DNA of 64,000 nucleotides, from positions 2,465,501 through 2,529,500 of the forward strand of contig CP011265.1 in the NCBI GenBank assembly GCA_000972765.1, read 5' to 3'. Positions 20,749 through 40,458 of the stretch are shown here, in pieces; positions within the stretch are counted from its first letter, which is position 1; each line of letters begins with the position of its first letter. The position numbers and the translations under genes were made by a program. The DNA comes from Verrucomicrobia bacterium IMCC26134 (GTDB lineage: Bacteria; Verrucomicrobiota; Verrucomicrobiia; Opitutales; Opitutaceae). The notes under the pieces are model-generated. The model had not been told where the DNA came from and did no database searches. It worked only from the letters and a program-made list of their open reading frames with translations.

Positions 20749-20823
<75 letters not shown>

Positions 20824-21504: not shown

Positions 21505-21582
21505 CTACGGCACGAACCCGGCCCTTCGCAGGCGGGCGGCGAGGCGGGGGGAGTTTTTCTTCGTGAGCTCGGGGGAGAAGAT
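21505..21582 (-). pseudogene. vsr 3' fragment (i)
   Basis: On the minus strand the last codons of a Vsr endonuclease can be read: ELTKKNSPRLAARLRRAGFVP then TAG. The intact gene at 24537-24965 ends ELAKKNARRLATRLRRAGLLPP. Nothing of the catalytic part remains. Confidence 0.65.
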
Positions 21583-21987: not shown

Positions 21988-22204
21988 TTACGGAACCAAG
22001 TCCGCGCGGCGAAAGCGGGCGGCGAGGCGGCGGGAGTTTTTCTTCGTGAGCTCGGGGGAGAAGATTTAACCTGTCCCTTGTTTGGTCCTGGCCGATATAA
22101 TCAACGATTCTCGGCCAGACCCCTTTAATTTGGCCGCCAGACCCCTTTGATTTGGCCCCAGAATTCAGCGTTGGTCTTGGGCTGTGTGGCGTGGAAATGG
22201 GGGG
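21988..22204 (-). pseudogene. vsr fragment (ii), in two pieces
   Basis: Two pieces read on the minus strand. 22204-22161 encodes FHATQPKTNAEFW, the region just after the catalytic FWHGCP of Vsr. 22065-21988 encodes ELTKKNSRRLAARFRRADLVP then TAA. They are separated by a copy of the direct-repeat tail (two AGACCCCTTT-ATTTGG motifs). The gene is clearly dead. Confidence 0.6.
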
Positions 22205-22627: not shown

Positions 22628-23236
22628 ATGAATCCCCTCGCCCTCCTTTTTCTCTCCGAAGTCCGCGCCGAGGTATTCCGTGTTCTATTCGGTATCGGAG
22701 CGAAGCGAATGTATCGCGCTCAGATCGTGGGGCTCATTGATTATGCCCCCAGCTCGGTGGAGGAGGAGCTGGCAAAACTGGTGAAGCTGGAGCTGCTCCT
22801 TACCACTACGGACGGCAACCGGCGCTACTACGAAGCCAACCAAGCCCACTCGTTCTATCAGGAGCTGCGCTCCATCGTATTGAAAACAGTCGGTCTGCGC
22901 GACGTGCTGGCTGACGCGTTGCCCGCCGACCGCATAACATACGCCTTTGTTTTCGGCTCGCTGGCTGCTCAGACCGCCACGGCGGCCAGCGACGTGGATC
23001 TCATGATCATCGGCGACGCCAGCCACCGCGAATTAGCGTCCGCGTTGCGCGCCGTCGGTGAAAAACTGTCGCGCGAGATCAACCCCCACTTTTTCGGCAT
23101 CGACGAATTCCTTAACCGCGCCGCCGCCAAGGATCATTTCCTCGGCGACGTTCTCGCCAAACCGAAGCTTTTCATCCTAGGAGACGAACATGAGTTTACC
23201 GACTTGGTTGGCCGCAGGCTGGCTCCAACCGCATAA
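22628..23236 (+). CDS. Winged-helix / MNT nucleotidyltransferase antitoxin
   Basis: The protein has 202 residues. Residues 1-75 form an ArsR/MarR-like winged helix (EVFRVLFGIGAKRMYRAQIVGLIDYAPSSVEEELAKLVKLELL). Residues 95-190 form a minimal nucleotidyltransferase with VFGSLAAQTATAASDVDLMIIG, carrying the GS pair (110-111) and Asp122/Asp124. MNT proteins can detoxify HEPN RNases by AMPylation. The next gene, overlapping by 47 bp, is a HEPN-like gene, which fits an MNT-HEPN toxin-antitoxin pair. Operator dyads sit immediately upstream. Confidence 0.8.
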   Translation: MNPLALLFLSEVRAEVFRVLFGIGAKRMYRAQIVGLIDYAPSSVEEELAKLVKLELLLTTTDGNRRYYEANQAHSFYQELRSIVLKTVGLRDVLADALPADRITYAFVFGSLAAQTATAASDVDLMIIGDASHRELASALRAVGEKLSREINPHFFGIDEFLNRAAAKDHFLGDVLAKPKLFILGDEHEFTDLVGRRLAPTA

Positions 23237-23813: not shown

Positions 23814-24026
23814 TTACGCGACAAGGGGCGGCACGAGCCCGGCCCTACGCAGGCGGGCGGCGAGGCGGAGGGCGTTTTTCTTCGTGAGATCGTGGCCCCA
23901 GATGCGCAGCACGCGCCAGCCGGCGCGGCGGAGGGTGCGGGTGACGAAGCGGTCGCGGGTCTGGTTGCGGGCGATCTTGGTCCGCCAAAATTCCGCGTTC
24001 TGCTTGGGCTGCGTGGCGTGTATCGG
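23814..24026 (-). pseudogene. vsr C-terminal half (iii)
   Basis: A 70-residue frame on the minus strand matches the second half of Vsr: PIHATQPKQNAEFW, RTLRRAGWRVLRIWGHDLTKK, ending RRAGLVPPLVA and TAA. It starts right after where FVDGCFWHGC should be, so the active site is missing. It is about 75% identical by eye to the intact Vsr at 24537-24965. It ends 8 bp beyond the HEPN remnant. Confidence 0.75.
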
Positions 24027-24058
24027 AAGAAGACTTAACCCGTCCCTTGTTTGGTCTT

Positions 24059-24384: not shown

Positions 24385-24560
24385 AGCACATCTGCCCGAA
24401 CTGCGGTCACAATTGGGATGCGCCGGCCCCGCAGCAGGCGAAGGCGGGCAAGTCGCGATGGAAAGGCGTGAGCGCCAGGAAACGAAGCGAGGCGGCGAAA
24501 AAAGCGGCGCTCGCCCGCTGGGCCAAGGCTTCCGAATCAACAGGCGAGGGGCGGAAGTAA
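24381..24560 (+). CDS. Short zinc-finger protein, about 59 residues
   Basis: TTG 24381 overlaps the upstream stop (TTGA). The product begins KHICPNCGHNWDAPAP (one CxxC and a His) and continues as a very basic tail with KSRWKGVSARKRSEAAKKAALARWAKA, likely to bind nucleic acid. Its last 24 bp overlap the 3' end of vsr on the other strand. The overlap and the plausible zinc motif support it, but the weak start codon leaves doubt. Confidence 0.5.
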   Translation: MKHICPNCGHNWDAPAPQQAKAGKSRWKGVSARKRSEAAKKAALARWAKASESTGEGRK

Positions 24561-24965
24561 TCCGGCCCGTCGAAGCCGGGTCGCGAGCCGGCGGGCGTTT
24601 TTCTTCGCCAGTTCGTGCTCCCAGATGCGCAGCACGCGCCAGCCGCGAGCGCGAAGCGTGCGGGTGACAAACCGGTCGCGCGCCTTGTTGCGCCCGATCT
24701 TGGTTTCCCAGAAAGCTACGTTTGTTTTCGGCTGGGTGGCGTGGATCGGGCAGCCATGCCAGAAACAGCCGTCCACAAAGACCGCAAGTTTGAGCTTGGG
24801 GAAAACGAAGTCCGGCTTGCCCTCCAGCGACCAGCGCCGCCGCCAGCCGGTGATGCCGTGGGTTTTAAAGATGCCGATCAGCCGCAGCTCGGTGTCCTTG
24901 TTGCCCGTGCCCTTGATGCGCGACATCACATCCGATCGCTTCGCCTTAGTCCAGATGTCGGCCAC
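24537..24965 (-). CDS. vsr: Very short patch repair endonuclease
   Basis: The protein has 142 residues. It shows the full Vsr layout: MSRIKGTGNKDTELRL, GKPDFVFPKLKLAVFVDGCFWHGCP (Asp52, Asp65, His70, zinc Cys residues) and the C-terminal RDRFVTRTLRARGWRVLRIWEHEL. Vsr nicks T:G mismatches made by deamination of 5-methylcytosine. It is the last gene of the defence operon, 38 bp after the AIPR gene; its job is to repair damage at sites modified by the operon's C5 methyltransferase. Several degraded relatives lie in the 3 kb beyond it. Confidence 0.95.
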   Translation of the reverse strand: MADIWTKAKRSDVMSRIKGTGNKDTELRLIGIFKTHGITGWRRRWSLEGKPDFVFPKLKLAVFVDGCFWHGCPIHATQPKTNVAFWETKIGRNKARDRFVTRTLRARGWRVLRIWEHELAKKNARRLATRLRRAGLLPPLAC

Positions 24966-25003
24966 AGTAAGGCGGTTTTGATATTTCTATAGACGTAGCA
25001 TCT

Positions 25004-27061
25004 CTAGCTTGCCGGAGGCGGCCGCGTCGCCGCCGTGGCGAACAACTCAATGATCTGACGCAGTTTTTTGGGGCCGAAGCCCTGCTTCATTTTGAGCTTT
25101 TCCCATTCAAGCGCGGCGAGGTGCCCGACAATTAGGCCGCCGGTGTTGGGCGGGTAATCCTTCCCCAAGCGCACCGCCATGCCCATGACGGTGCGCTTGT
25201 CGTTCACAAATTTCGGGCGGAGCCGTTCCCACTCCTGTGCCAAGGCCTCGGTATCCGAGCGCGCCGCGACAAAAGCGTGAGTGCCGAGCGCCGATTGCCA
25301 CCCTGCATCAAGCTGGATTGGCGTGTTCCGAAATTTTTCCCAATTCTCCTGCTTCTTGGCCGCCTCGGTTGGATTACCCGGCAAGCACTTGATGTAGGCT
25401 AGTGCCGCCGCGCCCGCCGCGCTAATGGCAGCGGCCAGCGGATCGGAAAGAGTCTGCTTTTCCCAGATGCGGTTCAGCTCGATCTTGCGGTCGGATTTCT
25501 CGATCAGCCACGCCAACGCGTAGGCAATGGTCTGTGCGCGTAGGCTCCCGCTATCCTTTGGCACGAGGTGCAGCGCCGACTTGAACAAGATCATCTTCGC
25601 AACGACCTGCTTGAAATAATTTAGGTCTACCAATGGCTCGTCTTCGTCCTCATGACGTTGGGCCAGTGCTATGAAGTTTTTCTCTGCACCACGACAAACG
25701 ATGTTGGGCAGGCCGGCCCAAATTTGTTCGTATTTCGCGAGGTCGGTCTTGGTGAACTTTTGCGCGGCCGGGTTTTGCTTTTCCCATTCGCGCATCTTGG
25801 CCTGCGTGCCTTGGCGCATCTTGTCGTCCGCGTAGCTGCCGCGCGCCCGCTCGTAATACCAGTGCGCGCCACGCTCTAGGCCGCTGGTGGCGGGCGACCA
25901 GACGGTGCGAGAAAGCTTTTCGAGTTCGAGGTGGAAGCGGCCATTTGCGGAAAAATCGGCCGCGTTCACCTTGTTCTGGCTGTTGGCATATTTGGAGATA
26001 AGCGGCACGATATCGGCAACGCGTTCCGGGTTGCTGAGCACGGTGAGCTTCACCTGCACCACCACCTCGGCTACCTCGGTTCCTTCGCGTTTCATGGCGT
26101 GGTAGATGCTGGCTGTGGTCTGGCCGCCGTTGACGATCTGAAAATCGCGCACGCTGCGCAGCACGGCGTGCCCGTCCTTATTTGTCTCGACCACAACCGA
26201 GGCGGCAGTGCAGCACAGGCCGTTATTGTAGGCGAGGAAGCGGTGCGGTTCTTCCCGCAGCGTTTGTTGCAGACCCTTGTTGATCTTACCCTTCGCCTGG
26301 AGAAACGCGCGCACGTTGCGCTCGAGTAGACGCTGGCCGTGTTGTCCGTAAATTTTGGCCAAAACCGGAGCGCGCAAAAACGCGAGGTAGGTGCGGTATT
26401 CCCCATGGGCGTCGGCCATTTCTAGGGCCGGCACGGGGCCGCCATAAGCATGCTCGAAATCCAGCTCAATCACTTCGCGGTCACCGACTTGCAGCCGGCT
26501 CAGCTTTTCCAGATCCCATAGCACGTAACGCAGCTCCAGGCCCTCGATTTGCTCCTGCTCGATCTCGCCGGCCTTCACCACGCCATCGGTTAGGAAAAAG
26601 AGCCGAACAGTGGTGAGCGCGCCTTTGGCCTCGTGGATACGCTGCATGGCCGTAAACACATTGTGCGAGGGGTCGAGCTGGGTATGCCATCCATCCAAGG
26701 CGCGGCGAAGAAAACCACGGAGCTGTTTGAAATATTTTTCGACTTCGGATCGAGCGATGGAGGGCGGAGCGTCGTCGTCCGCGTAGTGCGCCACGAACAA
26801 GTCCAGCGTGGCGCCATCGCCGGAGAGAGACCAAGCGTTGGCCTTGGCTGCATCGTATTTTCCCCGTCTGGGGGGATCTTCATAGGCTTCGAAGCGCTCG
26901 CAGTCGCCGACCTCGTTGTGCTCGATCAAACGCTCTAGAACGACGTCGGTGAAGGCCTCCGCGCGCAGCGGCGGCGTGCCCTCCTCCGGTTCATACTTGA
27001 TGCGAACCTCCTGCTTAAGGAGTTCGGCGTAGAGTTCGAGGTGGCTGGGTGCGTCGGACAT
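25004..27061 (-). CDS. AIPR-family (abortive infection phage resistance) protein
   Basis: The protein has 685 residues. The AIPR signatures are visible: EPHRFLAYNNGLCCTAASV (about residue 275) and VRDFQIVNGGQTTASIYHAMKRE (about 310), followed by KYANSQNKVNAADFSANGRFH. The N-terminal third includes a domain with FFLTDG and LRYVLWDLEKL that resembles a diverged nuclease-like fold. AIPR proteins occur in phage-defence and restriction loci; the mechanism is not established. It starts 15 bp after the PD-(D/E)XK gene, so it is part of one transcript from the methyltransferase. Confidence 0.9.
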   Translation of the reverse strand: MSDAPSHLELYAELLKQEVRIKYEPEEGTPPLRAEAFTDVVLERLIEHNEVGDCERFEAYEDPPRRGKYDAAKANAWSLSGDGATLDLFVAHYADDDAPPSIARSEVEKYFKQLRGFLRRALDGWHTQLDPSHNVFTAMQRIHEAKGALTTVRLFFLTDGVVKAGEIEQEQIEGLELRYVLWDLEKLSRLQVGDREVIELDFEHAYGGPVPALEMADAHGEYRTYLAFLRAPVLAKIYGQHGQRLLERNVRAFLQAKGKINKGLQQTLREEPHRFLAYNNGLCCTAASVVVETNKDGHAVLRSVRDFQIVNGGQTTASIYHAMKREGTEVAEVVVQVKLTVLSNPERVADIVPLISKYANSQNKVNAADFSANGRFHLELEKLSRTVWSPATSGLERGAHWYYERARGSYADDKMRQGTQAKMREWEKQNPAAQKFTKTDLAKYEQIWAGLPNIVCRGAEKNFIALAQRHEDEDEPLVDLNYFKQVVAKMILFKSALHLVPKDSGSLRAQTIAYALAWLIEKSDRKIELNRIWEKQTLSDPLAAAISAAGAAALAYIKCLPGNPTEAAKKQENWEKFRNTPIQLDAGWQSALGTHAFVAARSDTEALAQEWERLRPKFVNDKRTVMGMAVRLGKDYPPNTGGLIVGHLAALEWEKLKMKQGFGPKKLRQIIELFATAATRPPPAS

Positions 27062-27076
27062 GGTGAGAGGAAGAAA

Positions 27077-28078
27077 TTAGGGAGTGGAAGGCTGGGCGTG
27101 GAGAGCGTCGATAATCGCGAAGATCGGCACGGAGAACGCGGCGCAGGCGGCTAGACTGAGCTGGTAGCTGGCGTCGCCCACGCCCGGAGGCAGGTCGGCC
27201 TCGATGATGCGAGGGAAACCCGCGCCGACTCGAAACGTGTCCGCTTGGCGCACCGCATAACCGGTGGCGGCGTAGCGCGGGGCATGGCTGTCGAGGTAGC
27301 GGGCGGCGAGTAAAGCCTCCTCGACGGCTTCCCGCGCCGCCGGCCAAGGCGTGAGAGTGGCGCGGAGTTGAGCCACAAGCGCGGGCAAGGTAGCAGCGCC
27401 GCCTTCGTGCGTCTCCAACATAAGCACGTGCAGGAAAAGCGCCGGGGCGTGGGTATCGTCGAGCTGGCGTTCGCTGGCGATGCGCACGGTGTGCGGCTGT
27501 TTGGCGAGCGTGGTCTTCACCTCGATCCAGGCGCCCGGGTATTGAAAATCTTGATGCGCGCCGACCGGGCCTTTCCAGCCTGCGACAGCCATGCCGCTTT
27601 CGAGTATCGGGATAAGTTGGTCGTGAAGGAATTTCAGCTCTCCCCAAAGCCCGCGCTGTGATTCTGGGCTCAGGCCGGCGTTGGTTGCCGCAAGAAAACG
27701 CTGCCATCGGACGAGCTGACCAAGCAGCAGCGCGACGGCCTCCGTAGGTGCTCCGGATGATTCCTCAACTCGACGAGCTAGATCTTCGGCAAGTGCGGAA
27801 AATACATCGTTGAAGCGAGAATCGCGCAGAATGACGCCGAATGAAACATGGCCCGCGAGAGTTAATGCTGTCACTTCGATACCGGCGATTACCGGCCATT
27901 GCTTTTTGGGTGGAACAGCCTCGACCGGCACTCGCAGTAGTAACGCACGACGCGCATTTGATCCCTCTATCGCGACGAAAAGCGGGTGCCCCTTAATCGG
28001 GCGGGCAAGCCGCATGCACCAGCCTTCGGGTCCTGGGGTTTCTGCCTCCAGCGCGAGCCATTGTTCCTCAATCGTCAT
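27077..28078 (-). CDS. PD-(D/E)XK motif protein (DUF4420), putative restriction nuclease
   Basis: The protein has 333 residues. A nuclease core can be read: GLWGELKFLHDQL (Glu147), GAHQDFQYPGAWIEVKTT with Asp177, Glu186 and Lys188, the D...ExK arrangement. DUF4420 proteins accompany Z1 and GHKL ATPases in restriction-modification loci and are the likely DNA-cutting subunit. It overlaps the Z1 gene by 11 nt and is followed at 15 bp by the AIPR gene. Confidence 0.88.
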   Translation of the reverse strand: MTIEEQWLALEAETPGPEGWCMRLARPIKGHPLFVAIEGSNARRALLLRVPVEAVPPKKQWPVIAGIEVTALTLAGHVSFGVILRDSRFNDVFSALAEDLARRVEESSGAPTEAVALLLGQLVRWQRFLAATNAGLSPESQRGLWGELKFLHDQLIPILESGMAVAGWKGPVGAHQDFQYPGAWIEVKTTLAKQPHTVRIASERQLDDTHAPALFLHVLMLETHEGGAATLPALVAQLRATLTPWPAAREAVEEALLAARYLDSHAPRYAATGYAVRQADTFRVGAGFPRIIEADLPPGVGDASYQLSLAACAAFSVPIFAIIDALHAQPSTP

Positions 28079-30992
28079 ATACCTCGTCCTCCTGAAGCGC
28101 GGTTATCCAGCGTTTGTTTACTTGGTATTCGACGCGCGCCGCCGATTCGCTTTCCGGGAAGCTGAAGGCGAGACCGATGACCGGTGGGCCGGAGGGATCG
28201 AGGCCTGTGCTTTCCTCTACGCCGCCCTTTTTCACAGCGCTTACTTTTTCGGGCTGTTTTAGTGGATAGATTAGGAGAAGTCCGTGCGTTTTTGGACGAA
28301 GGTCACGCACTACCTTGCCATGGGGTCGATCGAGATCTTTCGCCGAACCGGCGTTTTCAGGATCGGCTTGCGCCCTCTCACGGGTAAGCGCGAGAGCTAC
28401 CTCATGGAGATTTAGCGGCTTCGTTCTGGTCGCTTGGTCGAGGAGGAACTGCCGGTCGGGGTGAAGCACGGGCTTGGCGACGATTTTCTGCGCCAAATCT
28501 TCGTCGAATATGAAGTAGCTCAGGTCGATTGATTCGTCGCTCGGGTTGAGGATGTTAGCGTTACGCAGAGCGTAATCGTCGGCTCGCTGGCTTGCGGGGC
28601 TTCGGTTTACGAGGCCGATTTCGTGGCCTGCGAACTGGCGTTGAGCGTTGGCCGACGCCTTGGAGTTGGAGATCAACGCGACTGTCCAATTTGTGAGTTC
28701 GCCTTGGGACGCCTGTTTCAGGATGAAGCGCGATAATTCCACACCGCTTGCTCGCGTTGATTCCACGGGAAACTTCGTTCCGCGAATGTAGTTCGCAATG
28801 GCCTCTGCGGGCACGTCACGCCAGAGATAGGAATCACCTTTGCCCACTTTATCCGGCGGGCCGGGAAGCGCGGAGAGAAAGTTTTCCGTAGCCGCAGCAT
28901 TTGCTGCGATACGAGCATCTTTCGGGAGCTGGGTCGTCTGCACCAACACACCCGCCCACGACAGCTCCAAGCGCTGACTATGGCACATTTTGTTAGTCGC
29001 GGTAATTATCATTCCCCCAGGATGCGTGCGCACGCGAAGGCCATAACGCTCTGGGGTAAGACCAGCGCGCACCATGTAGTCGAACTCGCGGCGAAGTTCG
29101 ATTTCTGCCAGAGCGATGTGGCGATACCAGAGGGTCAAATCGTGGGTGGTGTATAAGCGGCAAAGATCCAAATAGCCGGGGCGATAACCGAACCAACGAC
29201 CCATCTGCATGAGCGTGTCATACATCTTCGAGGTCCGGAGAAAGTAGCTTGCGGTCAGACCTTCAAGGGTAAGCCCGCGGGACAGCTTATTACCACCTAC
29301 CGCGATCACGCTGCGGCCGTGCGCTTCGTGTTCTTTGTAATCTAGCGCATCCTTGGCGAAGCCGTGGATCGCCAGCACCTCTATTTTGGAAGCCGCGTGA
29401 TGAAGTTCCGATTGCACCTGAGCCCACGTGACCAGCGGGCCCGCTTCTTCACCGAGTTCGGTGCTGGTGGGCACAAATTCGCTTTCCCATAATCCCTCAA
29501 GCTCCTGCAACAGTGCCGGAGTTAGGGCGCCGTCTCCATAGGCGATACGCCGCTGAAGTGCGGAGATCTCGATTTTCACTAACTCTGCCACGTGGTTTTG
29601 AACCGCTACAAACCGCGTAACGTGGATTAGCATCGAGCAGTGCTTCTTCGCTTGGCCCCGTGCTCGCCGAGCGGCAGTTGCGAGAACAAAGCAACGAATC
29701 GCAGTCTTTAGAGATTCAGGGAGTGCCGAAGGAACGTGGTCAATTTTGTGGCCCGGCGGAAAAGCTCTTTGGTCCGCGTAATCCGTGACCATGCGCAAGA
29801 TCGGCAGACCATCGCTTGCGGGAATGCCGGCGTCCACGTCACCATCCAAGCCAAACACCTTGGCGGGGCCAATGTAGTTTGATGGGGCCTTTACGTTAAT
29901 GATGAAGCTACGGGGAAAGATGTCGTCGCCGTGTTTTTCTGTCTGCGCATCGGGATTAACGAAGATGTTCGCGAACGGAGTGGCAGTGTAGCCGACATAG
30001 GCGGCTTTTTCGAAACTGGATAACAATTCGCGAATCTTGCCGTTGATGGCGGAGACGCTGTCTTCCTCCCCTTCTTTTTGGGCTTTAACGTTGATGGAGG
30101 CGTTGTCCGCTTCGTCGTCGATAAGTAGCAGTGGGACCTTGGGGACAATTTTACCGCCGGTTTTGGCGTTGTCTTGGCCGGCTACATGAAGAACCCATTT
30201 CAGAAGATTTTTGAGGACATGTGAGTTCTTTTTAACGACCAGAACAACCGGATCGCCGCCGATCATCACACCAATGGTTTCGGCGATTCGTTTGTTGAAG
30301 TCGCCGTCTTCCGCGCTGCTGGTAAGCGAGTGTATGTGGAGTCGTTCACCGCTTTGACCGACACCGATCCAGCGGTTGTTCTGATCGAGTTTTCGATTCT
30401 TCTGCGTGTCAAAGCCAAGGACACCTTCGTCGATGCGGAGCTGTGTTTGGCTGCGCAGATTGCTGTGAATGCCCGCGAGGATGATGATGACTTTGTATCC
30501 CGCATCCACGGCCTTGGTAATCAGTCCCGTATAGTTAGCGGTCTTTCCCGACTGAACACTTCCGACAACCATGCCTCGGCGATCCCAATGGCCTTCCCGG
30601 TCCGGATCTTCCAGTCGCTGAAGAACCATATCCGTAAGCTCATCCAGGTTTCTCACTACATCGGGGGCCATGCCGAAATCGCGTTCCAGATAGGTCGCAT
30701 ATCGGTTCCAAAACCGCCACGGAATCGTGCCCCGTTTATTGGTGAGCCACTCTTCGTGACCTCGGGGATCATCCAGCGCTGTTCCTTTTTCCGCAGAAAC
30801 GGAAAAGAGGTGCATCAATTCGGAGGCGAGTTGCTCGGCATCTACGCTTCCCGAAGGATTTAAGAGCGCGACGGCTTTAATGACATTCTCAACGGCTGTC
30901 CGAATATCGCCCTCGGTGCGTCCTTTTTTCCCTTTTAAAACATCCACCGCTAGATTCCGGGCGAGTGTGTAAGCGTCGGCGTGTGGATTCAT
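28068..30992 (-). CDS. Z1-domain superfamily ATPase/endonuclease-associated protein
   Basis: The protein has 974 residues. A P-loop lies at 144-151 (GSVQSGKT, in GMVVGSVQSGKTANYTGLI) and a DEAD-like box in PLLLIDDEADNASIN near residue 285, followed by the YVGYTATPFANIF motif III. The Z1 signature region GGNKLSRGLTLEGLTASYFLR and MGRWFGYRPGY lies at about 555-600. Z1 proteins are superfamily II helicase relatives in restriction-modification systems. It overlaps the GHKL gene by 4 nt and the DUF4420 gene by 11 nt. Confidence 0.92.
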   Translation of the reverse strand: MNPHADAYTLARNLAVDVLKGKKGRTEGDIRTAVENVIKAVALLNPSGSVDAEQLASELMHLFSVSAEKGTALDDPRGHEEWLTNKRGTIPWRFWNRYATYLERDFGMAPDVVRNLDELTDMVLQRLEDPDREGHWDRRGMVVGSVQSGKTANYTGLITKAVDAGYKVIIILAGIHSNLRSQTQLRIDEGVLGFDTQKNRKLDQNNRWIGVGQSGERLHIHSLTSSAEDGDFNKRIAETIGVMIGGDPVVLVVKKNSHVLKNLLKWVLHVAGQDNAKTGGKIVPKVPLLLIDDEADNASINVKAQKEGEEDSVSAINGKIRELLSSFEKAAYVGYTATPFANIFVNPDAQTEKHGDDIFPRSFIINVKAPSNYIGPAKVFGLDGDVDAGIPASDGLPILRMVTDYADQRAFPPGHKIDHVPSALPESLKTAIRCFVLATAARRARGQAKKHCSMLIHVTRFVAVQNHVAELVKIEISALQRRIAYGDGALTPALLQELEGLWESEFVPTSTELGEEAGPLVTWAQVQSELHHAASKIEVLAIHGFAKDALDYKEHEAHGRSVIAVGGNKLSRGLTLEGLTASYFLRTSKMYDTLMQMGRWFGYRPGYLDLCRLYTTHDLTLWYRHIALAEIELRREFDYMVRAGLTPERYGLRVRTHPGGMIITATNKMCHSQRLELSWAGVLVQTTQLPKDARIAANAAATENFLSALPGPPDKVGKGDSYLWRDVPAEAIANYIRGTKFPVESTRASGVELSRFILKQASQGELTNWTVALISNSKASANAQRQFAGHEIGLVNRSPASQRADDYALRNANILNPSDESIDLSYFIFDEDLAQKIVAKPVLHPDRQFLLDQATRTKPLNLHEVALALTRERAQADPENAGSAKDLDRPHGKVVRDLRPKTHGLLLIYPLKQPEKVSAVKKGGVEESTGLDPSGPPVIGLAFSFPESESAARVEYQVNKRWITALQEDEVYDD

Positions 30993-32479
30993 GCGGATTG
31001 TTCTTCCAAGGTGGCGATGAGATGGGGAAACGCGTCAAAAGGGCTATGGCTGCGAAGGCTGCGCCGGGCTTCATCAGGTGAGTGGCCCATGCTTCGGAAT
31101 ACTCGGTAAAGCTGTGTCATGGCTTCTCGTATTTCCGGGTCCGCAGCGTCTTGAAACGGCTCCGGCTGCGAGTCGGGTTTTTCGGTGCTGGCGATGCTAA
31201 TGTGTTGCAGGGGGATGGTCTCTTGCAGGAGGCGGAGGAGTGCGCCGAAGGCGGCTTTGTCCGGCGCGGTCTCGGCGATTTGCTTCACGAGCGGGTGCTC
31301 GCGGTTGATTTGATAAAACACGCGGTCGTGCTTCGCCACCGGTGCCCAAAGGTGGACGATTGCCGAGGCTGCCTGCGGTGTGAGGCGCGCGCCGCGGTGG
31401 GTGTAAACATTTTTCGCCCGGGCTCGGATGGTAGCGGCGAAGCTCTTCAACTCGTCGCGCAGGGCGGAAGGCGGGGTGGCTCGCGATTTGGTGACATTGA
31501 TCTGCCACTCGTGGTCGAGTGTGTTGGGCAGCTCGATGGCGATGCGGGCTAGCTTGAGGTGCTCGTCCTTGGTCCAGCCAAAGCCCAGCCAGTCTCCGGC
31601 GACGAGCAGGCGGTCGCGGCGGTAAACATAAAACCCTTGGTGGGCCAACCAGCCGCGCGGTCCCGCCCCGGCCTCGTGCTGGGTCTTGGTGAGCTTGGAA
31701 AAGTGGGGGAGGACAAAGCCGCGCATCGGGATGCGGGGGATGCTGGTTCTTAGCTCATCGGAGAAGGGCAGCGTGGCGGGATGATCCGCCATGAACGGGT
31801 CCCACGGCTCGACCGGGCGTTCGTTCACTAGGATTCGCACCGCGTCGCGGCCAGTCATCAGGCGATGGAAGACCATGCCGAGGTGGCGGCGCACGACCTC
31901 GATGCGTTCAAGAAAACGTTGGTGGTGTTTCTCGTTTTGCGTGTCTTGGCCGCGCGTCAGGCGGTCGAGCTGTTGCCAGAGGACGGTCGTTCCGTTCGGC
32001 AGGGTGGCGAGACGGGCGAAGTTGGGCTCTGCGTGGGCGTCGGCGGAACGGAGGAGGCGCCAGTCGTTCTTGGCGGCGATGAGGTCGAGATCCCAGCAAC
32101 GCGTTTCCAAGGTGTCGCCCGCGCGTCGGCTACGCACCGTGAGGCGACGGCATTGCGACAGGGAGGCTGTTTTGAGGCCGAGTCCGAAGCGACCCAGATC
32201 GTGAGGGGCACGTTCGGCGAGCGGTCCCCTTGTGCCGAGTCGCATGGCCTCGACGAGTTCGGGGGCGCTCATACCGTGGCCGTCATCAGTCACGCTGAGG
32301 ACGGACGCGGCGCCGTCCCAATCGAAGCGAAGCCAGACGTGCCGTGCCCCGGCTGAGATGCTGTTGTCCACCACGTCGGCTAAAGCGGTGGGTAAGTCGT
32401 AACCAAAAGCGCGCAGACTCTCAACGATTGCAGCAGCGTGAGGGGGTGTCGTGTCGAAAAGCTCGTCTTGCATCTGCAT
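30989..32479 (-). CDS. GHKL ATPase (MutL/MORC/Hsp90-like) of a restriction system
   Basis: From ATG 32479 the protein has 496 residues. The Bergerat fold is clear: ALADVVDNSISAGA (Asn39), TDDGHGM (65-70) and GRFGLGLKTASLSQC (96-110). The C-terminal half is a helical domain typical of defence-associated MORC-like ATPases, with no MutL endonuclease motif. It starts 5 bp after the methyltransferase stop and overlaps the Z1 gene by 4 nt. MutL/MORC-type ATPases with Z1 and nuclease partners in restriction-modification loci are known from comparative genomics (Iyer, Aravind and co-workers). Confidence 0.9.
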   Translation of the reverse strand: MQMQDELFDTTPPHAAAIVESLRAFGYDLPTALADVVDNSISAGARHVWLRFDWDGAASVLSVTDDGHGMSAPELVEAMRLGTRGPLAERAPHDLGRFGLGLKTASLSQCRRLTVRSRRAGDTLETRCWDLDLIAAKNDWRLLRSADAHAEPNFARLATLPNGTTVLWQQLDRLTRGQDTQNEKHHQRFLERIEVVRRHLGMVFHRLMTGRDAVRILVNERPVEPWDPFMADHPATLPFSDELRTSIPRIPMRGFVLPHFSKLTKTQHEAGAGPRGWLAHQGFYVYRRDRLLVAGDWLGFGWTKDEHLKLARIAIELPNTLDHEWQINVTKSRATPPSALRDELKSFAATIRARAKNVYTHRGARLTPQAASAIVHLWAPVAKHDRVFYQINREHPLVKQIAETAPDKAAFGALLRLLQETIPLQHISIASTEKPDSQPEPFQDAADPEIREAMTQLYRVFRSMGHSPDEARRSLRSHSPFDAFPHLIATLEEQSA

Positions 32480-32484
32480 AAAAT

Positions 32485-34179
32485 TCAGCGGGTGCCGACC
32501 TGATTGGGCGCGAGACTGCTCGAGCGCGCTACAGGCATCGAATGGATGCGTGTCGCCATTCCTGCTCGCTGAGCTGCGACACAATAAAATGCTTCGTCGG
32601 AGAATTCATCGGCGCTAAACCGGCGCCATGCCTCGACGCCAAAAGCCTCTAACATCACGGGCCAACCGCTACGGGTGTAACGGCGGCCAAACCTATCCAC
32701 GGCCTCACCGCAAGCGGGCTCGTTATGTTTTTCCTCTCCGTGCTCCAAGGCATTTTCGGGATGAAGATCGGGGAAAAGCCAAAGCAGGGCATGCCAGCCC
32801 TTCAGGAAGTCTGCGGTTTGCATCGCGCGTAGCATTTTACGGTCGGCTTTCGTGAGTGGGTCTAGCCACTCGACCGCTTCAGAATGTGACCGCGGTAACG
32901 GAAACGCTGCCGTCGTTTTTGCGTGCTGAGCCGAACGTGAATAGTCGCCGTTCTGTGCCGGTGGTCGCAAGAAGCGGAGAATTGCATCCCCCACGGCTTC
33001 GCCAATTAACGGTGGCACGGCGTTTCCGATCACACGGAAGGAGTGGGTGCGGGCTTCCGAAAAAACGAACCAGTCAGGGAAGCTCTGCACGCGTGCCGCC
33101 TCGCGTGGAGTGAGCGACCTGTTCTGCACCGGGTGAATAAACATTAGTCCGTCCTTGCTCAAGTGGGCTACAATGGTGGAGCAGGGTTGGTTGCGATGCT
33201 GGCGGGTGTAGCGGTCTTTGAAACTCGCGCGGCTATAGGGAAACTCGAATTTTACTCCGCGCTCACGAAAGGCTACGGCGGCGTTTTCTCCCTCGCGCAA
33301 TTTGGCAAAGTCGCGCAGGTCGCGGGCGCTGTGAGGGCGGGCGACATGGTTGAAGATCGCGGCGGCTTGCCCAACTTCGGCAACACCCTGTAGGTATGGC
33401 TTGCGGAGGTGATCACGCGTGCCGCCAAGGAAATTTTTCTCGCGACGCTTTTCGTCGTAGGGGACTTGGTTTTCACCTTCTCCAGCCGCAAGCGCAGGGA
33501 GGTCGAGAATGGCATCGCCCAACATGGTTTCCAACGAGGCGCGAGGCGCGGGTGTAAGCTCGGCAGGAAAATAACCGGCAAGATCGGCACGCACGCCAAC
33601 GATTAGTTGCCGCCGACGTTTTTGCGGCACGCCCAGTTCAACACCGCGCTCGATCTGGGGATGAACGCGATAGCCTGGTAGCCCCTTTGATTGGCCAAGT
33701 GTGCGGGCTTCATATTGAACGGCTGTAAAGTAGCGTCCGCCTGCGGCAGAGCGGAGCCCGAGCACGTTTTCGATGATGAATACCTTGGGCTGAAAAAACT
33801 CCACGCAATCGAGAAAGTTACGGAAGAGGTGACGGCGAGGGTCTTCCTTGAGGCGTTCAGTGCCGTGGTTGGAGCCGTCTCGCTGGCGCGCAGTGGAGAA
33901 TCCTTGGCACGGCGGGCCACCGACAATCACGTCTACCTGATTCGTTCCGATGATGGCCGCTAAGGTTTCGGGAGGAAGGTCTGTGAGGTCCGCTTCCAGC
34001 GCGAAACCGACCGGCGGTAACCCGGTTGGCGATTTGGCCTGAAGATTTGCCCGAAGTGTAGCTATCGCTTGGGAATTAAAATCGACGGCCGCCTTGCAAT
34101 CGAAACCCGCTCGAAGCATCCCGAGGGTGAATCCGCCGCAGCCGCAGAAGAGGTCTATAAATGTGGGGCGATCAGACAT
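32485..34179 (-). CDS. DNA (cytosine-5) methyltransferase
   Basis: The protein has 564 residues. The C5 methyltransferase motifs are in order: FIDLFCGCGGFTLGM (I), VGGPPCQGFS with catalytic Cys91 (IV), FIIENVLGLR (VI), QKRRRQLIVG (VIII) and RVIGNAVPPLIGEAVGDAI (X, about 390-410). After motif X there is an extension of about 150 residues of no recognised family, which may bind the partner proteins. It is the first gene of the leftward defence operon and presumably protects host DNA from the Z1/GHKL/nuclease complex. The recognition sequence cannot be told. Confidence 0.95.
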   Translation of the reverse strand: MSDRPTFIDLFCGCGGFTLGMLRAGFDCKAAVDFNSQAIATLRANLQAKSPTGLPPVGFALEADLTDLPPETLAAIIGTNQVDVIVGGPPCQGFSTARQRDGSNHGTERLKEDPRRHLFRNFLDCVEFFQPKVFIIENVLGLRSAAGGRYFTAVQYEARTLGQSKGLPGYRVHPQIERGVELGVPQKRRRQLIVGVRADLAGYFPAELTPAPRASLETMLGDAILDLPALAAGEGENQVPYDEKRREKNFLGGTRDHLRKPYLQGVAEVGQAAAIFNHVARPHSARDLRDFAKLREGENAAVAFRERGVKFEFPYSRASFKDRYTRQHRNQPCSTIVAHLSKDGLMFIHPVQNRSLTPREAARVQSFPDWFVFSEARTHSFRVIGNAVPPLIGEAVGDAILRFLRPPAQNGDYSRSAQHAKTTAAFPLPRSHSEAVEWLDPLTKADRKMLRAMQTADFLKGWHALLWLFPDLHPENALEHGEEKHNEPACGEAVDRFGRRYTRSGWPVMLEAFGVEAWRRFSADEFSDEAFYCVAAQRAGMATRIHSMPVARSSSLAPNQVGTR

Positions 34180-39438: not shown

Positions 39439-40458
39439 TCAGGCGTGAGCCTTCGTGATCCTTTTGCCGGCGGCGGCAAGGCGGGTGCGCAGTTCGGCGG
39501 GCTCGATGGCCTCGGCGTGGCCGCCCCACTGGAGAACGAGACGCTCCACTTCGAGCAGGTCGGCCAGCTGAAGCCGGAGTTCAAGGCCACCGTCAGCCAG
39601 GGTGACGAACTCCTGCGACTCGTGCCAGAAACGATCCCGGACGTGGTCGGCTGCAAGCGGGGAAAAGCGAATGCGCACGCGGTGGTTTTCGGTGCCGTTC
39701 ATGACCCCCAGTGCGGCGGCAAAGTAGCGCTCCACGGTGAAGTTCTCCGGGCGCTCGAACCAGCGGGTGGATAGTTTCACGTCGATGATGCGACCGAGGG
39801 CGTAGGTGCGCATGGCTTCGCGGTCGAGGTCGTGGCCGACCAGATACCAGCGCCCTTCCCGATGGGTGAGGTGCAAGGGCTGGACCTGGCGCTTGGCGGA
39901 CTTGGCATCACCGGGTTTGCGATAGCTGAAGGAGATCTCGAGCTGGTCCGAGATCGCGTGACTGAGGCGGTCGAACACATCCAGTTCGTTGACGGCGGGG
40001 GCGGCGACCTTGAAGGAAATCGCCTCCGAGGAAGGCGCGTAACCGGACATGGCCGCCATGGGCGCGAGCAGTTTGGCGAAGGCCGTCTCAAGCTGGTGAT
40101 GGTAGGGTGTGCCCCGGTATTGCTCGATGGCTTTTTGCGCGACCATCAGGGCCAGCAACTCACCCTGGGTGACCTGGACGGTGGGGAAGTCATGCACCTC
40201 CTCGGTGAAATGGTAGCCATGCTCCTGCGCGTCGTAAGCGATGGGCAGACCGAGCTGGTCGCGCATGCAGGCGATGTCCCGCTGGATGGTTTTGTCCGCC
40301 ACCTCCAGCGCCTTGGCGAGGGCCTGGCAGTTGGGGAATTGGTTCTGCTTGAGCAGGTCGAAAAGCCGCTTCATCCGCACCACCGCCGGCCGGTTTCCGA
40401 TTGCACGAGCCTGGGCGGGTTTGGCGGCGGGAACGGCAGGACGGCGTTTGGCGGGCAT
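39439..40458 (-). CDS. WYL-domain transcriptional regulator
   Basis: The protein has 339 residues. Residues 25-90 are a DeoR-like winged helix (MKRLFDLLKQNQFPNCQALAKALEVADKTIQRDIACMRDQLGLPIAYD). The WYL domain (about 165-250) shows ISFSYRKPGDAKSAKRQVQPLHLTHREGRWYLVGHDLDREAMRTYALGRI. The end is a WCX-like extension. WYL proteins sense nucleic-acid or nucleotide ligands and often control defence genes. It stands in the middle of the accessory cluster and is a candidate regulator of the TTGTCCGACCCC promoters, by position only. Confidence 0.85.
   Translation of the reverse strand: MPAKRRPAVPAAKPAQARAIGNRPAVVRMKRLFDLLKQNQFPNCQALAKALEVADKTIQRDIACMRDQLGLPIAYDAQEHGYHFTEEVHDFPTVQVTQGELLALMVAQKAIEQYRGTPYHHQLETAFAKLLAPMAAMSGYAPSSEAISFKVAAPAVNELDVFDRLSHAISDQLEISFSYRKPGDAKSAKRQVQPLHLTHREGRWYLVGHDLDREAMRTYALGRIIDVKLSTRWFERPENFTVERYFAAALGVMNGTENHRVRIRFSPLAADHVRDRFWHESQEFVTLADGGLELRLQLADLLEVERLVLQWGGHAEAIEPAELRTRLAAAGKRITKAHA

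Follow-up and report, generated by a model that had tools for sequence, protein, structure and literature searches.

What kind of machine is built by a C5-cytosine DNA methyltransferase (MTase), a GHKL ATPase, a Z1-domain ATPase, a DUF4420 nuclease, an AIPR protein and a Vsr mismatch endonuclease, when all six are packed into one operon, is the question raised by positions 24537-34179 (minus strand) of a 64,000-nucleotide stretch of the genome of Verrucomicrobia bacterium IMCC26134 (contig CP011265.1), hereafter the window. The comparison with relatives, the conserved catalytic sites and the modelled folds indicate that the operon probably encodes an ATP-dependent, cytosine-methylation-guarded restriction-modification (R-M) system.

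A complete six-gene operon

The region consists of six complete open reading frames (ORFs) on the minus strand, each protein being matched by each of Pfam, PADLOC and NCBIfam. The first gene codes for a C5-cytosine MTase of the Dcm type (32485..34179; 564 aa; PF00145, E 1.4e-51; TIGR00675, 152 bits against a cut-off of 100.65). It is followed by a MutL/MORC-like, MzaB-like GHKL ATPase (30989..32479; PF13589, 5.7e-28; PADLOC MzaB, 2.7e-118; NCBIfam MzaB, 473 bits), 496 aa long if translation starts at the ATG at 32479, a longer TTG frame beginning at 32584, and by a MzaC-like Z1-domain ATPase of the superfamily 2 (SF2) type, the probable motor (28068..30992; 974 aa; PF10593, 4.2e-83; PADLOC MzaC, 1.7e-191; NCBIfam MzaC, 771 bits). 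The last three genes encode a MzaD-like PD-(D/E)XK nuclease of the DUF4420 family (27077..28078; 333 aa; PF14390, 1.5e-71; NCBIfam MzaD, 169 bits), a MzaE-like AIPR protein (25004..27061; 685 aa; PF10592, 1.1e-88; PF22879, 5.9e-33; NCBIfam MzaE, 362 bits) and Vsr (24537..24965; 142 aa, GTG start; TIGR00632, 111.9 bits against a cut-off of 97.85). From MTase to Vsr, the intergenic gaps are 5, -4, -11, 15 and 38 bp. A broken or frameshifted gene was ruled out, no internal stop being present in any of the six ORFs. The gene assignments and their order, the packing (overlaps or at most 38 bp) and the completeness that a sequence-only reading of the window had claimed are thus all borne out.

Occurrence in relatives

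Relatives were taken as the best 80 of at least 457 Z1 matches from a Z1-alignment scan of genome contigs, and eight annotated plasmid loci were added; the rates given here hold for that set, chosen by Z1 similarity, in which gene calls are based on hidden Markov models built from matches in those same loci. Fifty-three of the 80 genome loci are well flanked, with at least 7 kb on either side of Z1. A C5 MTase was found within 9 kb of Z1 in 53/53 of them and the ordered core GHKL-Z1-DUF4420-AIPR in 51/53, so that the gene order cannot be ascribed to chance. Vsr lies within 9 kb of Z1 in 39/53 (50/80 overall). The exact six-gene order, which the sequence-only reading had proposed to search for, recurs in 6 of the 53 well-flanked relatives, and a gene order unique to the window was therefore rejected.

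Euryarchaeota and a number of bacterial phyla are represented among the best 80 relatives, of which the nearest named one is an Akkermansia metagenome-assembled genome (Z1 61%). Within the window's phylum, DUF4420 is present in 13 of 387 genomes (12 above the cut-off), and among 57 close relatives the Z1 protein was matched in three, own genome included, one of the matches being distant (30%). Near the core, an AspBHI-like modification-dependent restriction gene was observed in L081 (6607-7914, by Pfam) and, by cluster membership, in L004 and L053.

Catalytic sites of the core

The residues expected of active enzymes are strongly conserved. In the MTase, P90-C91 and E137-N138-V139 are found in 78/78 sequences, and the AlphaFold2 (AF2) model (mean pLDDT confidence score 79.2) matches mouse DNMT1, 3g7u and the HaeIII and HhaI MTases at Z 31-36. 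The GHKL ATP site (D35, D38, N39, D65, G67, G69) is conserved in 88/88, and the only two PDB sequence matches of this protein are MORC4 (E 0.0064) and MORC3 (E 0.012). In Z1, K150 and D292-D293-E294 are conserved in 89/89, with GxVQSGKT (Walker A), DDEAD, TATP and QMGRWFGYR strongly conserved in the same 89 sequences. E147, D177, E186 and K188 of the DUF4420 protein are each found in 84/84. A PDB sequence search with Z1 and DUF4420 gave no match at E 1. As to the MTase, two further C5 MTase matches lie elsewhere in the same genome (G000 C1:1425255-1426813 and C1:3602922-3604037), while that genome as a whole has a single Vsr match.

The presence of a C5 MTase in every well-flanked locus and the invariant DUF4420 site point to DNA cutting. 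They also argue against abortive infection, that is, a core that acts through AIPR to kill or arrest the infected cell upon phage-altered methylation or replication, and not by restriction. This account draws on the name of AIPR, given for abortive infection, on a PADLOC AbiU match (1.9e-22) and on the N-terminal HEPN toxin domain which the relevant passages of Makarova et al. 2012 (PMC3506569) assign to AIPR proteins.

Domain structure of AIPR

The AF2 model of AIPR (pLDDT 87.7, 68 sequences) suggests a restriction-endonuclease-like N-terminal domain (model residues 5-194; 26480..27049, minus strand), a ParB/Srx-like middle domain with NNG and VNGGQT motifs (model residues 215-373; 25943..26419, minus strand) and a helical C-terminal part. 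Fold matches were obtained with VIA-align 2, whose caution level is Z 8: the N-domain matched AF1548 (1y88; Z 9.1), a protein of unknown function, FokI (8.8), MspJI (8.6) and AspBHI (8.3), and the middle domain PNOB8 ParB-N (6.9), PadC (5.8), SspE (4.3) and BrxU (3.8). Foldseek of the model gave no match at E <= 0.001, and the PDB sequence search only three weak ones (E 0.33-0.72).

In the middle domain, N279 N280 G281, V310 N311 G312 and Q314 T315 are invariant (80/80 each) and G313 is found in 79/80. Residue 89, where the strand order would place the catalytic lysine, is Phe in 71/80, and not Lys. AIPR is thus modelled as a restriction-fold domain devoid of the canonical lysine, joined to a ParB-like domain with invariant motifs. 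DndB has a ParB-like domain. In the corresponding part of Makarova et al. 2012 (PMC3506569), the N-domain of DndB is placed in the AIPR family.

Makarova et al. 2012 assign the N-domain to HEPN, and our model-based restriction-fold reading departs from this. The modelled domain is alpha/beta and not all-helical, with restriction-fold matches in a comparison that had HEPN structures outside it, and the single Rx4-6H string in the first 240 residues (119-126) is not at positions listed as conserved. Considering this fold together with the evidence for cutting, abortive infection seems to us rather unlikely, and an R-M system is preferred.

Co-divergence of the core, the methyltransferase and Vsr

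Across 72 loci, window and plasmid loci included, pairwise distances correlate at r 0.85-0.92 among the core proteins, at 0.56-0.59 between the MTase and the core and, in the 50 loci also having Vsr, at 0.44-0.56 between Vsr and the core and 0.55 between Vsr and the MTase; shared ancestry contributes to all of these values. The high core values therefore point to a single four-part machine and, since they exceed those of the MTase and Vsr with the core, the core is nearly a fixed unit, with the MTase and Vsr more exchangeable.

Pushed further, the same figures could be read as an MTase and a Vsr forming a separate, swappable module beside an MZA-like defence core blind to methylation. Co-divergence with the core, put in this comparison at 0.56-0.61 for the MTase and 0.44-0.56 for Vsr, falls well under that within the core, the side and strand of both genes vary between loci, and other restriction enzymes are annotated near the core in the plasmid loci L004, L007 and L008. 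Yet the MTase accompanies the core in 53/53 well-flanked loci and in 17 of the 19 genome loci with a sigma-factor cluster member (see below), and it lies only 5 bp from the core in the window. We regard such a detached module as unlikely, and retain the MTase as part of the R-M system.

Vsr and the repair of deaminated 5-methylcytosine

Vsr of the window is similar to E. coli Vsr (1cw0; 1.2e-18) and is the only PF03852 match in the genome at E <= 0.001. E26, D52, H70 and D97 are conserved in 55/55 sequences; residue 65 is Asp in the window, being His in 35/55 and Asp in 15/55 among relatives. At lower coordinates, a truncated second vsr copy is preserved as a remnant of the C-terminal 71 residues (23817..24029, minus strand; 75% identical to residues 72-142 of Vsr at E 4.4e-23; 77% as a DNA repeat), with a 25-residue piece (21508-21582, minus strand; 64% identity) and a vsr-related DNA repeat (21989-22069). 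These remnants suggest earlier cassettes at the site.

Comparison between loci is informative on the role of Vsr, counts of which vary by definition (50/80 within 9 kb of Z1; 52/74 MTase loci anywhere in the locus). A free HhH-GPD gene was found in five of the MTase loci (L018, L021, L024, L025 and L051): Vsr is present in 0/5 of these versus 52/69 of the other MTase loci (Fisher p 0.0016, kinship ignored). All five free glycosylases have the Mig-type Arg47, Ala50, Tyr126 and Asp144, with Leu, Phe or Asn at position 187 and never the Gln of MutY. The meaning of A50, L187, R47 and Y126 in Mig/MutY-type enzymes is taken from the passages on these residues in PMC2714593, according to which they are insufficient alone to make a T/G glycosylase. 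A PDB comparison of two of them gave the G/T mismatch enzyme Mig (1kea, E 1.5e-43) as the best match of L051 and, for L018, a tie between MutY and Mig 1kea (1.5e-37 and 2.3e-37). The best NCBIfam model for L051 is mutY, at 144 bits versus a cut-off of 286.5.

A glycosylase-like part was also observed fused to the MTase. Fourteen MTases, which we take to be actinobacterial from their genus names, carry a C-terminal tail of 237-287 residues (L026, L027, L030, L038, L039, L041, L054, L058, L059, L060, L063, L066, L069 and L087), glycosylase-like in the better-matching ones. The sole tail compared with the PDB, that of L038, has 1kea as best match (E 8e-7), with no Pfam HhH-GPD match of this MTase at E 0.01. 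The catalytic Asp and Tyr are absent from all 14 tails in the alignment; in eight (L054, L058, L059, L060, L063, L026, L027, L087) the similarity to glycosylases is weak and the residue alignment therefore uncertain. Vsr is present in 12 of these 14 loci.

The simplest reading of these sequences is that T:G repair would be an accessory job of which Vsr is the usual holder, and Vsr looks like a repair arm of the system. A literature search on Vsr with a mismatch glycosylase found nothing. E. coli Vsr has a restriction-type fold. That Vsr would be the restriction nickase of the system, and not a repair enzyme, as this fold, the absence of a separate type II restriction enzyme from the six genes and an Asp at residue 65 where most relatives have His could suggest, is very improbable given the non-homologous glycosylases with Mig-type residues in five Vsr-less loci, the 14/53 well-flanked loci in which Vsr was not found within 9 kb and a score of the window Vsr above the curated Vsr cut-off.

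The C-terminal extension of the methyltransferase

The extension of about 150 residues which the sequence-only reading had left unexplained in the MTase corresponds to the tail after the last conserved MTase motif, and its common domain, here termed EXT, spans residues ~425-550 (32530..32907, minus strand) and is mostly helical in the model. EXT scores below the cut-off of every Pfam family, and in the fold comparison of the MTase model all matches fell in the MTase domain (residues 1-411), none being informative for EXT. A tail length was obtained for 75 of 82 MTases: tails of at least 70 residues belong to the 14 actinobacterial MTases and to L015, L017 and L029, which share the extension of the window.

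EXT is fused to seven MTases, namely those of the window, L015, L017 and L029 and, from genomes of the phylum, L102, L103 and L104; Vsr was called in four of these loci (window, L017, L102, L103). Using a free-standing relative as query, matches were found in 13 of the 387 phylum genomes; in G000, G020 and G072 the match is the fused gene itself. The other ten genomes hold 12 EXT places, seven at most 5 kb from a C5 MTase or Vsr gene (L105, L106, L124, L125, L128, L129, L131; a bare count, with no background rate) and five with neither at that distance (L107, L126, L127, L130, L132), some being near contig ends. The order in L105 is MTase-EXT-Vsr. L131 and L132 match only weakly (1.7e-6 and 9.7e-4), and the L124 copy contains one stop. 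EXT had no match at E 0.001 in plasmids and phages, and in viral contigs four stretches fitted a pattern, none being confirmed.

So far, then, EXT has been seen as a small helical domain of the window's phylum only, the search outside the phylum covering the ORFs of Z1 loci, plasmids, phages and viral contigs. The extension is real and is a shared domain that occurs both fused and free; our guess is that it is coupled to the MTase or Vsr.

Comparison with known systems

Homologues of MzaB, MzaC, MzaD and MzaE are found in the operon in the same order as in MZA (mzaABCDE; Gao et al. 2020), a system known here through PMC9523054 and the NCBIfam/PADLOC names, with PADLOC/NCBIfam E values from 7.8e-23 to 1.3e-231. 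Unlike MZA, the operon has a C5 MTase and Vsr, the MzaA sigma factor was not found (tblastn of the sigma-domain neighbours of L086 and L039 against the window, no match at E 0.01), and all four proteins miss the NCBIfam equivalog cut-offs (MzaB 473/850, MzaC 771/1500, MzaD 169/420 and MzaE 362/1050 bits). A MzaA-like gene cluster precedes the core in 19 genome loci (e.g. L086, L090) and in the plasmid loci L004 and L008; its representative in L086 has sigma-70 and ankyrin domains, and a C5 MTase is also present in 17 of the 19 genome loci.

The operon also resembles what Miller et al. 2022 (PMC9523054) describe as a putative 'Type II' system, which, as outlined in the sections describing it, shares Z1, PD-(D/E)XK, a cytosine MTase, AIPR and the MORC-family association, the latter being given here by the HATPase_c_3 match of the GHKL protein. 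DUF4220, as printed in those sections, is taken here as PF14390 DUF4420. The same sections tie DNA repair endonucleases to the Type I system, whereas here Vsr ends the operon and the MTase has an extra domain. As judged from sequence, the operon is an MZA-like core with a C5 MTase that matches this Type II system, a kind already known. The view that such loci are known from genome surveys with their mechanism unsettled was correct, and the published Type II system and the resemblance to MZA can now be named; a published mechanism was not found in the literature searched, which is not proof of absence.

GHKL, an SF2 helicase, Dcm, Vsr and AIPR, there in predicted R-M operons, are also shared with the MORC/paraMORC R-M neighbourhoods of Iyer et al. 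2008 (PMC2292703), a varied survey that, in its account of these neighbourhoods, gives no single fixed order. With the ATP-dependent CglI/NgoAVII R-M systems the operon shares a C5 MTase, an SF2 and Z1 ATPase and a separate nuclease subunit, but these systems, as portrayed in the corresponding part of PMC4267653, have three genes and a phospholipase D (PLD) nuclease with a B3 domain, and no GHKL, AIPR or DUF4420. N.CglI and N.NgoAVII are the Z1 proteins for which published biochemistry was found. According to the same part of that paper, ATP is hydrolysed by them on DNA that has unmethylated sites, in the presence of the nuclease (R-protein), and cleavage requires hydrolysis. None of the six proteins matched a PLD-family nuclease at E 0.01; DUF4420 is the nuclease here. 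Z1 of the window matches an N. gonorrhoeae record (24.6%, 4e-16) which may not be N.NgoAVII.

The flanks of the operon

A tRNA-Met (20749-20823), a nucleotidyltransferase-domain gene (22628-23236) and a WYL regulator (39439-40458) flank the operon on either side. An additional restriction enzyme was not found beside it in the ten flanking ORFs scanned (not all), whose Pfam matches were the nucleotidyltransferase and the WYL regulator only. The sigma-factor, free-glycosylase, histidine-kinase-like, 370-residue unnamed and AspBHI-like neighbours of relatives had no tblastn match in the window at E 0.01. A portion of PMC8011034 describes proteins that resemble histidine kinases and response regulators next to C5 MTases and Vsr, one Akkermansia included. 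An intact genomic island with terminal repeats was rejected, as the repeat search gave only vsr-related and short local repeats. The promoter scan returned a single weak site, a count below the mean of the shuffles.

Proposed mechanism and implications

Beside the gene content, order, conserved sites and co-divergence observed, the biochemical activities that we infer may be arranged in five steps. The MTase, as expected from its family, would methylate cytosine in a host motif. A complex of GHKL, Z1, the DUF4420 nuclease and AIPR would act on DNA with unmethylated sites, the MORC/MutL-like GHKL possibly as an ATP-driven clamp and Z1 as a translocating motor, a role proposed for the Z1-bearing N-proteins of CglI/NgoAVII. 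The DUF4420 protein would then cut, in keeping with its invariant E-D-ExK site. AIPR, with its lysine-less restriction-fold and ParB/Srx-like domains, may be a DNA-binding, nucleotide-sensing gate and not a cutter. Finally, in the step best supported by comparison, Vsr would nick the T:G mismatches arising from deamination of the system's own 5-methylcytosines (5mC).

Several observations weigh against this scheme. The first gene of MZA, in the sections of PMC9523054 dealing with it, is a sigma factor and not an MTase, and the CglI-type nucleases are PLD and not PD-(D/E)XK enzymes. The co-divergence of the MTase with the core is below the expectation for a strictly matched specificity pair. 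The four core genes are not always together, since neither DUF4420 nor AIPR was called in L072 and L073 (2/53), where GHKL, Z1, the MTase and Vsr are present, and in the plasmid locus L007 Z1, DUF4420, the MTase and an AlwI-type enzyme are annotated, GHKL and AIPR not. All ParB-type fold Z scores of AIPR are <8. As for repair, four of the five free-glycosylase loci are archaeal, a kinship ignored by the test, and both Vsr and a free glycosylase are missing from 17 of the 74 MTase loci (15 without any glycosylase-like domain, two with a tail only), ten of the 17 having at least 7 kb on either side of Z1.

Compared with the sequence-only reading, our analysis adds the system membership, the comparative evidence for the repair role of Vsr, the domain picture of AIPR and a partial answer on EXT. 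More broadly, and tentatively, it is possible that such operons form a restriction type distinct from others and driven by ATP (with a MORC-like clamp, Z1 as motor, DUF4420 as cutter and AIPR as nucleotide gate), of which a built-in repair of deaminated 5mC is a regular component, and that EXT is an undescribed domain coupling methylation with mismatch repair, shifting between a fused and a free state next to MTase and Vsr genes, in parallel to the apparently dead glycosylase-like tails of actinobacterial MTases. For EXT, this would be a small new lead on methylation-repair coupling. For a defence class that is annotated but mechanistically blank, the scheme offers a testable model that says which of the subunits does the cutting, what is sensed by AIPR and what Vsr is there for. 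The replacement of Vsr by Mig-type glycosylases suggests that a gene devoted to countering 5mC mutagenesis is often part of these systems.

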